Positions 53,056 through 61,631 of a stretch of 64,000 nucleotides of DNA are shown one piece after another. A program made the translations under genes and the position numbers. How positions within the stretch are numbered: position 1 is the first letter of the stretch; each line of letters opens with the position of its first letter. Under the pieces are notes generated by a model. That model had not been told where the DNA came from, searched no databases, and saw only the letters and a list, made by a program, of their open reading frames with translations. The DNA is from Chlorobiaceae bacterium (lineage in GTDB: Bacteria; Bacteroidota; Chlorobiia; Chlorobiales; Chlorobiaceae). Where the stretch lies: assembly GCA_013334965.1 (NCBI GenBank), contig JAAXWO010000004.1:124001-188000 (forward strand), written 5' to 3'.

Positions 53056-54507
53056 ATGAGCTTGATGATCAGCGTCTCCGGCATCCGTGGCGTCGTCGGC
53101 AAAAGCCTGACCCCGGAAAACCTCACGGCATTCACCATGGCGTTCGCCGCATGGACGGTGCGGAGGAAACGCGAGCGATGCGGCGACTCTGCCGTAAAGC
53201 CGAAAATCGTCATAGGCAGGGATACGCGGCCTACGGGCGAACTGATCACCGAACTGGTCGCCAGCACGCTGGCGCTCTGCGGATGCGATGTGGTGGACCT
53301 CGGCATGGCGACCACCCCCACCGTCGAAATGGCGACCGCCGGTGAGCTTGCGGACGGCGGGCTGATCGTCACCGCGTCCCATAACCCCGTCGAGTGGAAT
53401 GCGTTGAAAATGCTCAACGAAAAAGGGGAGTTCCTTACCGCCCCCGATGTCGAACTGCTGCTTGAAATCGCCCGCGACCGCTCCTTCGTGACCACCGGAT
53501 GGGAGGGTCTCGGCTCCATCACGGGTAACACCTCCTGGGATGCAATCCATATCGCCAGCGTCCTGAACCTTTCCTGCATCGACAGATCGCTCATCGCAGG
53601 AATAAACTTCAGGGTGCTCGTCGACGCCGTCGAAGGGGCCGGTTCGTTCGTTGTCCCGGAACTATGCCGGCAACTCGGCATTCATGAAATCAAAACGCTC
53701 GCCTGCCAGGGAACGGGTATCTTTCCGCGCAACCCCGAGCCTGTCGAAGAGAACCTCGGCGTCACGATGGATATCCTCCGGAACGAAAGCTGCGATTTGG
53801 GCATCATCGTCGATCCGGACGTAGACCGACTGGCCCTCGTTTGCGAAGACGGAACCCTGTTCGGAGAGGAGTACACCCTCGTCGCCTGCGCCGACTTCTA
53901 CCTGAAGCACCGGAAAGGGCCGGTCGTCAACAACCTTTCAAGCAGCCGAGCCCTTCGGGACATCGCCGCCCGCCATGAAGTGGAATGTTTCAGCGCGAAA
54001 GTCGGCGAGGCCAACGTGATCGAAGTCATGAAAAGCTGCGGGGCAGCCATCGGCGGAGAGGGCAACGGTGGCGTCATCCTGCCCGAACTGCATTACGGCC
54101 GCGATGCGCTCGTTGGCATCGCCCTCTTCATCCAGGCCTTCGCCGAATGGAAAACCTCGACCGGCGGCACCTTGTCGGAGTTCAGGCGCACCTTCCCCGA
54201 CTACTCGATGTCGAAGCAGAAAGTTGTGCTCGAACACTTGTCAAAAGAGGCCCTCGAAGCCATTTTCGACCGGGTGGCCGCAAACCATCCTGACGCATCC
54301 TGCAACCGCCTCGACGGACTTAAACTCGACTTCCCCGAAGGCTGGGTTCACCTCCGTCCGTCGAACACCGAACCGATCATCCGGATCTACGCCGAATCGG
54401 CCACGAAAGACGGGGCAGACTCACTTGCCAACAGCTTCATTGCCGAAATCAGGAGCGCATCGGCCAGAATCGGCACAGATCCGACAACGGGCGAACAGGC
54501 GAAATGA
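53056..54507 (+). CDS. glmM: Phosphoglucosamine mutase
   Basis: Interconverts glucosamine-6- and -1-phosphate on the way to UDP-GlcNAc. The active phosphoserine is in TASHNPVEW (Ser108), with [11 protein letters not shown] at the N terminus, a [10 protein letters not shown] metal loop, GGEGNGGVI and the C-terminal phosphate loop [10 protein letters not shown]. The RPSNTEP form, DPDVDR and 483 residues fit GlmM-type phosphohexomutases better than the PGM/PMM paralogue at 33 kb. Its stop overlaps the ABC exporter start by 4 bp (ATGA). Confidence 0.88.
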
Positions 54508-56351
54508 GCGTGACCGCCAAACCGGCTTCGGGCTTCCGCACCCAGCAGGACGAAACGCTCGGCAAACGCAAAAAGGGTTCTGTCGACTTCTACATCGTCT
54601 CGAAACTGCTCGCCTACGTCAAACCTTTCAAGGGGCTGGTCACCGGCGCCATCCTCCTGACTGCAGGAGGCGCGATCCTTACTCCGCTGAGACCCTGGCT
54701 GACCAAGGTCGCCATCGACGACTACATCGCGCACGGCAACCACAAGGGGCTGGCGATCATCAGCATCGCCATGCTCGTGCTCATCGTCCTCGACGGGATC
54801 AAGCAGTATGCCGCCACCTGGCTGACGCAGCTCATCGGCCAGAAAGCGGTGTACAATATCCGCATGGACATCTTCAGGCACCTTCAGCGTCTGCCGATCC
54901 GTTATTTCGACAGGAACCCGGTCGGAAGGATCATCACAAGGACGACCAACGACGTCGAAGCGCTCGACGAAATGCTCTCAAGCGGCCTGATCACGATCGT
55001 CGGAGACATCCTTCAGCTCATTTTCATCGTCGTCATGATGTTCTTCAGCGACTGGCGGCTGACCCTCGTGGTACTGAGCATACTGCCAGCCATGATCTAC
55101 GCCACCATAGCCTTCAAGAACCGCGTGCGACAGGCGTTCCTCGACGTCAGGACCCATCTTGCGCGCCTGAACTCGTTCTTCCAGGAGCATATCACAGGAA
55201 TGAAGATCGTCCAGCTCTTCGCCAGGGAAGATGCGGAATTTACCAAACATTCGCAGATCAACGCCGATCACCGGGACGCCAACATCCGGACAGTATTCTA
55301 CTTTTCCATCTACTACCCGCTGATCGAGTTCCTGAGCTCGGCTGCTGCCGGCCTGGTGATCTGGTTCAGCGCGACAAGGATCATGAAGGCCGACCTCTCC
55401 GTCGGCGTGGTCGTATCGTTCGTCCAGTACATCTGGCTCTTTTTCCGCCCGCTGCAGCACCTCTCGGACAGGTTCAACATCATGCAGACGGCCGTGACCA
55501 GTTCCGACAGGATATTCCGCCTGCTCGAAGAGCCTGTTGATCCGGAACCTGCCGACTCCTCCGTCAGGATTCCATCGTTCCGGGAGCGCATCCTGTTCGA
55601 CAACATCTGGTTCGCCTATGACAACGACAACTGGGTGCTCCGTGACATATCCCTGGAAATCAGGGCCGGAGAGACCGTAGCCATCGTCGGAGCCACCGGC
55701 AGCGGAAAGACCACGCTCATCAACATCCTCTCCAGATTCTACCCTTACGCCAAAGGTTCGGTGACCATCGACGGAATCGAACTGAGCGATATACCGGGCA
55801 GGGAGCTGCGCAATCTTGTTGGAGTCGTCATGCAGGATGTCGTCCTGTTCGCAGGATCGATTCGTGAGAACCTCTGTTTCAGCGACCCGTCGATCCCCGA
55901 AGAGAAGGTCAGGGAGGCCGCCAGCATCGTAGGTGCCGACCGGTTCATCGAAAAACTGCCGGGAGGATACGACTACATGATCCGCGAAAACGGTTCAGGG
56001 CTCTCCGCCGGCCAGAAGCAGCTCATCGCATTCGTCAGGGCGCTCCTCTACAACCCGGACATCCTCGTTCTCGACGAAGCCACCAGTTCGGTCGATACGG
56101 AAACCGAGTCGCTCATCGAGCAGGCCACCGACAAGCTCATGAAGCACAGGACATCAATCATCATCGCCCACAGGCTCTCGACCATCCAGCACGCCGACAG
56201 GATCGTCGTGCTCCACAAAGGCACCATAAGGGAAACCGGCACACACCAGGAGCTGCTCGCCCGCCGGGGCCTCTATTACAAACTCTACCTCCTGCAGCAC
56301 CCCGAACGCTCCATCCAGGCGTTGGCCAGCCCAACTCCCGACGGACAGTAG
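54504..56351 (+). CDS. MsbA-like ABC exporter (fused permease and ATPase)
   Basis: A 615-residue half-transporter: about six membrane helices (residues 30-330) followed by a nucleotide-binding domain. Walker A is GATGSGKTT, the signature is [10 protein letters not shown] (a variant of LSGGQ, with Ala), and Walker B is [10 protein letters not shown] with an AHRLST H-loop. It is the size and layout of MsbA-type lipid or drug exporters. Translationally coupled to glmM. Substrate unknown; a lipid A-core or glycolipid is plausible from the neighbour. Confidence 0.85.
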
Positions 56352-58080
56352 CCCCGGACGATCCCACATGCAGGAGGAGTTCACTCCTCCGGACATTCAG
56401 ACCTTTTACATTCCAGCAGCCCCGGACGATCCCACATTCAGGAGGAGTTCACTCCTCCGGACATTCAGGCCTTTTACATTCCAGTAGCCCCGGACTTCAG
56501 TCCGGGGAGAGCATGCCCCCCCCCGATCTTCGGGCTTCAGCCCAATATCTTTCACTGCATCAGCGAGGATCACGAAACCCGATGAAGAGGTTGGACTGAA
56601 GTCCGGAATATTAATTTGATCATCCATCCCCGGACTAAAGTCCGGGGCAACTGAATAAAATATAAGATGATAATGTCCGCAAGGCTAAAGCCCTGCTGAA
56701 TGCAGGAGGTTAACCCCCCGGACATTCGTCTTCGATATTCATTCGGTTTTTAACCCGCCAGCCATTCAGAGTTTTTTAATTCCAGCATCCCCGGACGATC
56801 CCACATTCAGGAGGAGTTCACTCCTCCGGACATTCAGAACTCTTACATTCCAGTAGCCCCGGACTTCAGTCCGGGGAGAGCATGCCCCCCCCCCCATCTT
56901 CGGGCTTCAGCCCAATATCTTTCACTGCATCAGCGAGGATCACGAAACCCGATGAAGAGGTTGGACTGAAGTCCGGAATATTAATTTGATCATCCATCCT
57001 CGGACTAAAGTCCGGGGCAACTGAATAAAATATAAGATGATAATGTCCGCAGGGCTAAAGCCCTGCTGAATGCAGGAGGCCAAACCCCCTGGCCTTCGTC
57101 TTCAATATTCAGTCGGGTTTAAACCCGCCAGCCATTCAGAGTTTTTCAATTCCAGCAGCCCCGGACGACCCCACATTCAGGAGTCCCGACTTGTCGGGAC
57201 GACGGACATTCAGACCCCTTACATTCCAGCAGCCCCGGACGATCCCACATTCAGGAGGAGTTCACTCCTCCGGACATTCAGAACTCTTACATTCCAGTAG
57301 CCCCGGACTTCAGTCCGGGGTGAGCATGCCCCCCCCGATCTTCGGGCTTCAGCCCAATATCTTTCACTGCATCAGCGAGGATCACGAAACCCGATGAAGA
57401 GGTTGGACTGAAGTCCGGAATATTAATTTGATCATCCATCCCCGGACTAAAGTCCGGGGCAACTGAATAAAATATAAGATGATAATGTCCGCAGGGCTAA
57501 AGCCCTGCTGAATGCAGGAGCTCAAACCCCCGGACATTCGTCTTCAATACTCAGTCGGGTTTAAACCCGCCAGCCATTCAGAGTTTTTCAATTCCAGCAG
57601 CCCCGGACGATCCCACATGCAGGAGTCCCGACTTGTCGGGACGACGGACATTCAGAACTCTTACATTCCAGTAGCCCCGGACTTCAGTCCGGGGTGAGCA
57701 TGCCCCCCCCGATCTTCGGGCTTCAGCCCAATATCTTTCACTGCATCAGCGAGGATCACGAAACCCGATGAAAAGGTTGGACTGAAGTCCGGAATAGATT
57801 TTGAATTGATCTTCTCCCCCCGGACTAAAGTCCGGGGCAACTGAAGAATATGTAAGATGTTAATGTCCGCAGGGCTAAAGCCCTGCTGAATGCAGGAGGT
57901 TAAAACCCGGGGCAACTGATGAATATATAAGATGTTAATGTCCGCGAGGCTAAAGCCCTGCTGAGTGCAGGAGGTTAAAACCCAGGGAAAATGAAGAAGA
58001 TGTAAGACTTTAATGTCCGCAGGACTGAACTCCTCCTGAGTAGAAGAGGGTTAAGCCTGGGGAAACTCAAATGAATGTGA
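56352..58080. repeat. Hairpin-rich long tandem repeat array
   Basis: A 1.7-kb non-coding array between convergent genes. Four main units recur; the same landmark (TTCACTGCATCAG) falls at 56551, 56921, 57363 and 57737, so spacings are 370, 442 and 374 bp. The longer spacing comes from an extra 70-bp block. Each unit holds about seven palindromes such as CCCCGGACTTCAGTCCGGGG, GGGCTTCAGCCC, GGACTGAAGTCC, GCAGGGCTAAAGCCCTGC and GGAGGAGTTCACTCCTCC. After 57900 the units degenerate. Short ORFs here are repeat artefacts, not genes. Confidence 0.95.
57183..57200. repeat. Substituted hairpin in array unit 3
   Basis: GTCCCGACTTGTCGGGAC occupies the place that GGAGGAGTTCACTCCTCC holds in the other units; it also occurs at 57625-57642. 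Flanking sequence is otherwise the same. Confidence 0.8.
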
Positions 58081-58098: not shown

Positions 58099-59367
58099 TT
58101 ACAAGCTGCTGTCCCTCAGTACCTTGACAGGTTCAAGCCTTGAGGCACGGGCGGAGGGAAAGGCTGCGGCGATCGTACTGATGGCTACCGTCACAGCGGT
58201 GACCAGAAAGAAGTACATTGGGTTCCAGGACATGCTTAAACCGGTTTTTGTCAATGGTCCCTGGGAGCTCTCGGTGGGCAGGTTTGCAAGAATGTTTATT
58301 GCTCCGACAGAGAGAAGACAACCGAATAGAGCCCCTCCCAGACCGACAAGAAACCCTTCGAACACGAAAAGACCGACCATCTGGCCTGAAGAAAATCCGA
58401 ACGATTTCATGATGGCGATGTCGCGGCTTTTCTCGAAAACGGTGGTCACCAGGATGTTGGCCACACCGAACCCGGAAACCACACCGACGAAAGCGACAAG
58501 CGAAATGACGATATAGCCGATCCTGGCGAAAAGCATCAGCACGCCGGCGTTCTCCTCCTGCCATGTATTGCAGACGTATCCGGTCATGCGGGTGAGGTCG
58601 CGGGCAAGCGGGGCGTTGTTGATCGGGTCGCTGACCTTGAGGGATATGCCAGTAACCTTGTTGGCGGGCATCCCCTCGATGATCTGGCCGAGCTTGAGCG
58701 ATGCGAGGATGCTGTTGTCTGCGACGTTGACCCCTGTGAAGAATATTCCGGCCACCTTGCACTGACGGTTTTTCCCGTCGGGAGATATGATGGTGAGCTG
58801 GTCATTGAGCCTGACATCAAGATCTTTTGCGACAGTACGTCCGACGAGCAGGGCATCGGGGCTCCTCCGGAACAGGGCAAGATCCCCGGAAGTCAGGCTC
58901 TTGCCTATCCTGGTGATCTTGTCCTCCCTGTCGATGATGACGCCCTTGAGCAGCACCGGCTGGTTGCGGTTTCCCTTGACCGCCATGATCTGAGACTCGA
59001 CGAAAGGAGATGCTGCGATCACCTTCCGGGAAAAGGCCGGGGATGAAACGATCTCCAGCACCCTGCCGTAGTTGCGAACCTCTTCCCTTTCGTCCCGGCC
59101 GATATGATCTTCAACAAAGGAGAACCTCGACGATGGCCCGCCGGAAAACAGGTCCGTGGGTATCGGGTCGGTTTTCTGCCCTTTGACGTTGATGTGGGGA
59201 GCCGCGTTGATGATTGTTTCCGTAAACGAATCGAGCAGTCCCCTGGTCAGCGATATGGTGGTGATGAGCACCATCGTACTGACGGAAACGGCGACCATCG
59301 TCGTCAGCGTCTGGCGTTTGCGCCCGAGAATATGCCTGAAGGCGATATCGAAGAGGGTTCTGAACAT
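58099..59367 (-). CDS. FtsX/MacB-type ABC transporter permease
   Basis: A 422-residue membrane protein with an N-terminal helix (TLTTMVAVSVSTMVLITTISL), a large periplasmic domain, and three C-terminal helices (IGYIVISLVAFVGVVSGFGVANIL and following). This is the FtsX/LolC/MacB permease layout, used in lipoprotein release or mechanotransmission rather than classic import. The ATPase partner is not adjacent: the array lies on one side and fni starts divergently 101 bp away on the other. Substrate unknown. Confidence 0.85.
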   Translation of the reverse strand: MFRTLFDIAFRHILGRKRQTLTTMVAVSVSTMVLITTISLTRGLLDSFTETIINAAPHINVKGQKTDPIPTDLFSGGPSSRFSFVEDHIGRDEREEVRNYGRVLEIVSSPAFSRKVIAASPFVESQIMAVKGNRNQPVLLKGVIIDREDKITRIGKSLTSGDLALFRRSPDALLVGRTVAKDLDVRLNDQLTIISPDGKNRQCKVAGIFFTGVNVADNSILASLKLGQIIEGMPANKVTGISLKVSDPINNAPLARDLTRMTGYVCNTWQEENAGVLMLFARIGYIVISLVAFVGVVSGFGVANILVTTVFEKSRDIAIMKSFGFSSGQMVGLFVFEGFLVGLGGALFGCLLSVGAINILANLPTESSQGPLTKTGLSMSWNPMYFFLVTAVTVAISTIAAAFPSARASRLEPVKVLRDSSL

Positions 59368-61552: not shown

Positions 61553-61559
61553 ACTGAAG

Positions 61560-61615
61560 GCAGGGAGGGCGAAAGCCCTCCTGAATCTGAGAGGCTGAAA
61601 AGCCGGGGCAATCCA
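61560..61615. repeat. Solitary hairpin element related to the array
   Basis: GGAGGGC-GAAA-GCCCTCC (61564-61581) followed by CTGAATCTGAGAGGCTGAAAAGCCGGGGCAA-type sequence echoes the array's hairpin plus CTGAATGCAGGAGG and GGGGCAACTGA. It lies between the polyprenyl synthase stop and dprA. Confidence 0.75.
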
Positions 61616-61631
61616 GACCCAGCAACCATAC

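Follow-up and report, generated by a model that had tools for sequence, protein, structure and literature searches.

Hairpin array of a Chlorobiaceae genome as a probable cluster of REP-like elements with a subclass 1.2 Y1 transposase

What are the small hairpins that crowd the gap between two convergent genes of a Chlorobiaceae bacterium, and why do their loops stay constant while their stems change? The array lies in a 64-kb window of contig JAAXWO010000004.1 (the whole stretch analysed; all positions are window positions) and was first picked out by a sequence-only reading. With a probability of about 0.82, we interpret it as a tandemly amplified cluster of non-autonomous single-stranded DNA (ssDNA) elements that resemble repetitive extragenic palindromes (REPs) and their paired form, REP doublets forming hairpins (REPINs). 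We infer that the cognate enzyme is an HuH/Y1 transposase of subclass 1.2 encoded on contig C13. The elements share one architecture, their loops follow one rule, their stems covary, they accompany the transposase gene across taxa, and eight related species have no hairpins at the site.

Hairpin units, constant loops and compensated stems

A scan for perfect hairpins (stem of at least 6 bp, loop of 4 nt) found 39 in the window, 16 of them within the 1.7 kb of the array. The hairpins first read are thus real, and they are far above chance. Their loops are TTCA/TAAA, with TGAA, TTAA and CTTG where the stem is shorter or a variant. Although TTCA, TAAA and TGAA had been listed side by side, they are not separate motifs: read on the two strands, TTCA and TGAA, like TTTA and TAAA, reduce to the single oriented loop TTYA.

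Oriented by this loop, the hairpins fall into three types. Type A is a tag, CAGTTG or CAGTAG, followed by CCCCGGAC-TTYA-GTCCGGGG. Type A' is GGRC-TTYA-GYCC followed by AAYATCTT, about 22–24 nt past A. Type B is ATTCA, a 7-bp stem half, TTYA, the other stem half and GGACATT. The unit order is B A A' / A' A B, with the second half inverted, so that in each unit two double-hairpin ends face each other in inverted orientation across about 50 nt, with satellite B hairpins. The unit recurs about four times at a spacing of 370–440 bp, with 94–97% identity over 300 nt.

Every unit holds the same hairpin set: CCCCGGAC, GGGC, GGAC, CCCCGGAC, GCAGGGC and GGAGGAG. The sequence-only reading had the stems differing across the four units; the differing stems are different hairpin types within one unit. 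Taking them as compensatory change was rejected, since every unit repeats the same set, which leaves no compensation between homologous positions of the array units.

Compensation does appear between homologous slots across loci and species when the anchors ignore the stem. For B slots, the anchor was the flanks only (ATTCA-N18-GGACATT), with stem and loop left free; it found 62 slots in the host genome and 20 in relatives. Their stems include GGAGGAG/CTCCTCC, GCAGGGC/GCCCTGC, GTCAGGC/GCCTGAC, GGCGGGA/TCCCGCC, GAAGGAC/GTCCTTC and others, along with chimeric copies in which one stem half is unpaired. Among 40 distinct sequences, 86% of cells pair, and 48 cells show two-sided change, compared with 15.4 ± 3.0 in shuffled controls and at most 8 in slid controls. 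For A slots, where only the tag, CCCC/GGGG and the loop were fixed, the inner pairs vary as AU, CG, GC and UA (24 two-sided cells vs 7.4 shuffled). The shuffle control does not remove relatedness; the slid control retains it and falls nearly to zero. When the loop bases were not fixed in the search, 57/60 and 20/20 B slots, and 45/45 and 17/17 A' slots, had TTNA, with any of C, T, G and A at its third position. Stems therefore change in a compensated manner between copies and species while the loop remains TTNA. Selection on a folded single strand, which had been argued from four units with changed stems, stands on this other evidence and not on that argument.

The transposase and its hairpins across taxa

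The host genome has one short Y1 transposase gene (152 aa, C13:125825-126280), on a different contig from the array and enclosed by inverted A–A' ends in the same frame as the array units. The protein has H-u-H, Y113, Q117 and HH at 120–121, which gives the Y---Q--HH signature that marks TnpA-Y1 subclass 1.2. Its score of 71.7 clears the cut-off (55) of the NCBIfam IS200 transposase profile, and the Y---NP motif of class 2 TnpAREP is absent. A model of the Chlorobaculum thiosulfatiphilum ortholog (mean predicted local distance difference test score 88.5) has ISDra2/IS608 TnpA as its top fold match, with the complex 4er8 of a REP-associated tyrosine transposase (RAYT) with its REP lower; ISDra2/IS608 TnpA is also best by sequence. 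By its signature residues and its IS200 profile match, the transposase differs from a classical RAYT of class 2 and belongs with the IS200-type enzymes, in subclass 1.2. The early suggestion of a REP-type element mobilised by a RAYT gene elsewhere is supported in that a single Y1 gene lies between inverted copies of these hairpins, but the enzyme is of another class.

Orthologs are present as a single copy in 11 of 21 genomes of the host's genus, Chlorobaculum by its named records, at no fewer than three unrelated chromosomal contexts. Flanking hairpins are clear in 9 of the 11, and two loci have weak TTYA hairpins. No TTYA hairpins surround those scanned of the other Y1 genes of the host genome (331–336 aa; C2, C16), and the viral contigs searched hold no relative of the transposase. 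No tnpB was seen with the transposase, although no search was aimed at tnpB.

Searching the genome and its relatives for the same hairpins, as the sequence-only reading had advised, gave many copies. Genome-wide counts come from pattern searches, and sequence was examined directly in stretches around matches. In the host genome (2.48 Mb) the core GGRCTTYAGYCC has 146 copies, against 9 for the reversed control. The type-A pattern TWGCCCCNNNNTTYANNNNGGGG has 70 matches in the host genome, between 4 and 101 in every one of the 21 genus genomes and none in 20 genomes outside the genus; its control has 0. Copies occur singly, in pairs and in clusters. Most type-A copies have the tag CAGTTG and a minority CAGTAG; other genera have CTAA, ATTG or CTTG, compared with GT[AG]G at the foot of REPs. 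The window array is 92.5% identical to the C7 array over 777 bp, and other arrays are 66–78% similar; by this identity, the window and C7 arrays are recent copies. Units within one array are far more alike than units of different arrays, so growth by local tandem duplication is the most likely course.

At the orthologous ABC gene junction, eight species have 34–562 bp with no hairpins, one species carries B and A, and the nearest sister has one unit. Two relatives (loci L071 and L081) have an AT-rich repeat (GTTGATAATTGATAGTTGACA...) in place of the array at the ABC-permease junction.

The same frame extends beyond Chlorobaculum. For the contig scan, a wide alignment (A1) proved too poorly conserved, and the scan was repeated with alignment A2. 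Named Bacteroidota and Chlorobiota loci encode proteins 37–53% identical to the transposase; hairpin density there is 2.4 per kb up to 600 bp from the gene and 0.19 per kb farther out. Their outer stems are unrelated (CCCCGACA, CTCCGGCA, CCGTTGGC, CCACGCTC, CACCGGCC and others), their loops are TTTA, TTCA or TTAA, their tags are GACTAA, CAATTG, CAATTA and TACTTG, and A' stays GGGC/GCCC-like. Ends are inverted in 18 of 24 loci having hairpins on both sides. Among 60 ends examined, 30 have an A–A' pair, with a gap of 18–27 nt at 28. The 19 loci outside Chlorobaculum have 14 A–A' pairs (shuffled mean 0.0).

In a tree of 50 proteins, the rows with TTNA hairpins sit in one 30-row group (24 TTYA, 2 TTAA; support 90/80), the exceptions being a long-branch row and a TTAA row left unplaced. 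An 18-row sister group (support 100/100) has no TTNA hairpins. Plasmid relatives, including those of the cyanobacterial Chondrocystis (L152) and of Bernardetia (L153), have none adjoining the gene. Nearly all family members examined have Y---Q--HH.

Some loci have hairpins of other kinds. In another family of the phylum (G040; L063 1270-2600), an array of 7–9 bp hairpins, again with TTTA/TTCA loops and with stems GCGTCACCG and AGGCCGC, surrounds a Y1 gene of 29% identity; this looks like a second, independent expansion. On another branch of the transposase subclass, L062, L107 and L116 have flanking arrays of GACCCC/GGGGTC hairpins with 3–5 nt loops and stems CGACCCC and TCATCCC, apparently a different REP-like family. 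L112, L135, L136 and L150 are flanked by long 12–13 bp hairpins with loop TTAA (TATAGCCCCGCGC, ATAACCCCAGCC) that are fully palindromic, unlike the 8-bp type.

Mechanism and competing explanations

The end frame of an element is a tag NTWR, an 8-bp hairpin A, about 22–24 nt and a 4-bp hairpin A', both loops being TTNA. The palindromes would fold wherever the DNA is single-stranded, for instance at a replication fork. What TnpA would recognise is the tag and the T, T and A of the loop, whatever the stem sequence, so that compensated pair changes could accumulate in the stems under a constant loop and tag. The tag would guide a nearby cleavage, the element would be excised and rejoined at another place, and arrays would arise by later tandem duplication. 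We infer that TnpA binds, cleaves and mobilises the elements with the tag as guide; A and A' are perhaps gripped by the two subunits of one TnpA dimer.

The closest functional precedent is the REP of Marinomonas sp. MWYL1 (group 3 TnpAREP). In vitro, the loop bases T, T and A are essential and the third position is free, the first and last loop bases probably pair, stem swaps have a moderate effect, stem mismatches impair cleavage, and GTAG directs the choice of cleavage site (PMC8266576). The elements here follow this rule, which accounts for their constant loop and tag and their free yet complementary stems. The group 3 REPtron Mb likewise has a small perfect palindrome, the 4-nt loop TTTA and a short 5' guide, GTAG. 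Its transposase, however, is class 2 (TnpAREP group 3), whereas the enzyme here is of the class-1 type with Y---Q--HH, and the elements here have an NTWR tag (GTTG, GTAG, ATTG, CTAA) and A' about 22–24 nt inside. The system would work like a REPtron but lies outside the class 2 TnpAREP family, because the defining motif of that family is absent. We lean, with some reserve, towards a distinct ssDNA system across Bacteroidota and Chlorobiota, in which a class 1, subclass 1.2 enzyme has turned REPtron-like, with two-hairpin TTNA ends, free stems and large REP arrays in Chlorobaculum.

Several results weigh against a REP-like cluster with this cognate enzyme. The transposase scores 21.5 on REP_Tyr_transpos, under the cut-off of 80, as does the rest of its family. 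The near identity of units within an array suggests local tandem duplication more than a series of insertions. Because even the nearest relative has its own array at the site, no insertion junction could be resolved to the base with sequence from both sides. Copy number tracks the gene only loosely (genomes with and without it differ modestly, one-sided p = 0.026, uncorrected for phylogeny), and Draconibacterium has only about 8–12 pattern matches, so the family does not as a rule reach high copy number. Hairpins occur without a detectable transposase gene in 10 of 21 genus genomes, which fits gene loss or mobilisation in trans but weakens the link to the enzyme. One of the ten, G010, has 101 type-A copies and no detectable transposase of the family; it is either an orphan population or served by another enzyme.

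The array might instead act as RNA, as folded 3' ends that stop or protect convergent transcripts or as a small-RNA source, both of which the sequence-only reading had proposed. Its place between convergent genes, its strong folding (the core of one unit, folded as DNA, has z = -6.6) and weak terminator-like matches at A' hairpins speak for this. So does a match of 23.9 bits to Rfam RF01687 (Acido-Lenti-1 RNA), though it falls under the gathering score of that family, 37; no Rfam family reaches its own. Terminator-like sites number 4, close to the 2.1 ± 1.7 after shuffling, and the array scan found no promoter-like site. Hairpin clusters are intergenic and as frequent between co-directional genes (12) as between convergent ones (8), with one between divergent genes. 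The strand polarity of the loop is coupled to the tags and to the Y1 transposase gene, and most relatives retain both ABC genes with no hairpins between them. TTYA is not known to belong to a standard class of stable RNA tetraloops. An RNA role is therefore improbable, and those early proposals are not supported. The Rfam match covers 56478-56507 (-), a type A hairpin with its TAG tag. It shares with RF01687 the 8-bp stem, the 4-nt loop and an adjacent CUA (the TAG tag) and differs in the loop; speculatively, the Acido-Lenti-1 'sRNA' may itself be a REP-like DNA element.

REPs of Escherichia coli bind host factors, and the hairpins here could likewise be sites for gyrase, integration host factor (IHF) or nucleoid and segregation factors, amplified for chromosome function beside a transposase that is a mere neighbour. 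Clusters may indeed be large (the C5 array is 2.4 kb). But in many genera hairpins with unrelated stems enclose the transposase gene, and a free stem with a fixed loop and tag fits a duplex-DNA binding site poorly, which makes this account very improbable. A stronger contender, though still doubtful, is that the units are deletion derivatives of an ordinary IS200-type insertion sequence (IS), like miniature inverted-repeat transposable elements, and not a REP/REPtron system. The enzyme is IS200-type, the gene framed by ends would be the element and the units the same ends without the gene, the gene occupies at least three unrelated contexts in the genus, and solo copies are few in Draconibacterium. 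Yet each genome has one gene copy and dozens of solo palindromes, and the inverted ends and NTWR foot resemble those of REPtrons. Subclass 1.2, defined by Y---Q--HH, is also described as low copy and not IS-like, generally without typical terminal structures, and REPs are not named for it (Quentin et al. 2018, PMC6006769).

The REP-like reading agrees with that subclass in motif, short protein, low copy number and Bacteroidetes distribution, and differs in the solo copies and the conserved double-hairpin ends found in one clade. Like IS200/IS605 elements (ISDra2, IS608), which provide the closest solved structures of the enzyme (2xm3/2xma, 2vhg/2vic), the system has the HuH/Y1 fold, the catalytic residues and subterminal hairpins with a putatively contacted loop T; here, however, the ends are mutually inverted copies, the gene is single-copy and gene-less copies are many. 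With the REPs, bacterial interspersed mosaic elements and REPINs of Enterobacteria and Pseudomonads it shares intergenic palindromes, inverted pairs and clusters, and a framed cognate Y1 gene. E. coli REPs have GTAG and a bulge, whereas these elements have a perfect stem, a TTNA loop and two hairpins per end.

Features of the window and wider meaning

Homology to the C7 array starts precisely at the left tag. The outer borders of the array are tag-like and inverted, with CAGTAG followed by CCCCGGAC on the left and the reverse complement of GAGTTT followed by CCCC on the right.

Table 1. Array hairpins and neighbouring genes (window positions)
Feature	Position	Strand	Remark
Hairpin array, between two convergent genes	~56346..58071	.	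Extent from sequence and C7 homology
ABC transporter-like gene, left neighbour, convergent	54504..56351	+	615 aa; function assigned by eye
Tag CAGTAG (5') of type-A left arm	56346..56351	+	TAG doubles as stop codon of the ABC transporter gene
Type B GGAGGAG-TTCA-CTCCTCC	56373..56390	+	Flanks ATGCA / GGACATT
Type B	56441..56458	+	Flanks ATTCA / GGACATT
Tag CAGTAG + type A CCCCGGAC-TTCA-GTCCGGGG	56482..56507	+	Unit 1, left end
Type A' GGGC-TTCA-GCCC + AATATCTT	56532..56543	+	Unit 1, 24 nt past A
Type A' GGAC-TTCA-GTCC	56593..56604	-	Unit 1, right end, inverted
Type A CCCCGGAC-TTTA-GTCCGGGG with tag CAGTTG	56628..56653	-	Unit 1, right end, inverted
Type B	56810..56827	+	Unit 2
Tag + type A	56851..56876	+	Unit 2
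Type A'	56902..56913	+	Unit 2
Type A'	56963..56974	-	Unit 2, inverted
Type A + tag	56998..57023	-	Unit 2, inverted, single outer mismatch
Type B GCAGGGC-TTTA-GCCCTGC	57049..57066	-	Inverted
Variant GTCCCGA-CTTG-TCGGGAC	57183..57200	+	In B slot
Type B	57254..57271	+	Unit 3
Tag + type A	57295..57320	+	Unit 3
Type A'	57344..57355	+	Unit 3
Type A'	57405..57416	-	Unit 3, inverted
Type A + tag	57440..57465	-	Unit 3, inverted
Type B	57491..57508	-	Unit 3, inverted
Variant GTCCCGA-CTTG-TCGGGAC	57625..57642	+	In B slot
Tag + type A	57669..57694	+	Unit 4
Type A'	57718..57729	+	Unit 4
Type A'	57779..57790	-	Unit 4, inverted
Type A + tag	57818..57843	-	Unit 4, inverted
Type B	57869..57886	-	Unit 4, inverted; then two further degenerate 75-bp repeats up to 58071
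ABC permease-like gene, right neighbour, convergent	58099..59367	-	422 aa; function assigned by eye

The B-slot variant with loop CTTG is present in other species too (L050, L053). In chimeric copies (window 56346-56451; L036 5800-6260), the left arm of A (tag and CCCCGGAC) is joined straight to a B flank, giving rise to tandem repeats of 68–75 bp; recombination between half-sites seems to take place in the 4-bp core that surrounds the loop. A second, decayed copy at 61554-61622 (-), between two co-directional genes, consists of half an A (GATTG CCCCGGCT TTTC AGCC) and then a B-like GGAGGGC-TTTC-GCCCTCC.

The openly licensed literature searched holds no report of REP-like elements for subclass 1.2 or of the Chlorobaculum arrays. 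Because the stems vary freely, sequence-similarity searches miss such elements, which are thus probably under-annotated in Bacteroidota genomes. The finding gives a putative DNA partner to a transposase subclass that was described in 2018 as having none, and offers a simple, testable code: a tag NTWR and a loop TTNA, with the stem free. An IS200-class enzyme with REP-type DNA bears on the origin of domesticated REP systems from insertion sequences. If the proposed system is real, REP-type elements would have arisen a second time, with a TTNA loop code in common with group 3 TnpAREP.
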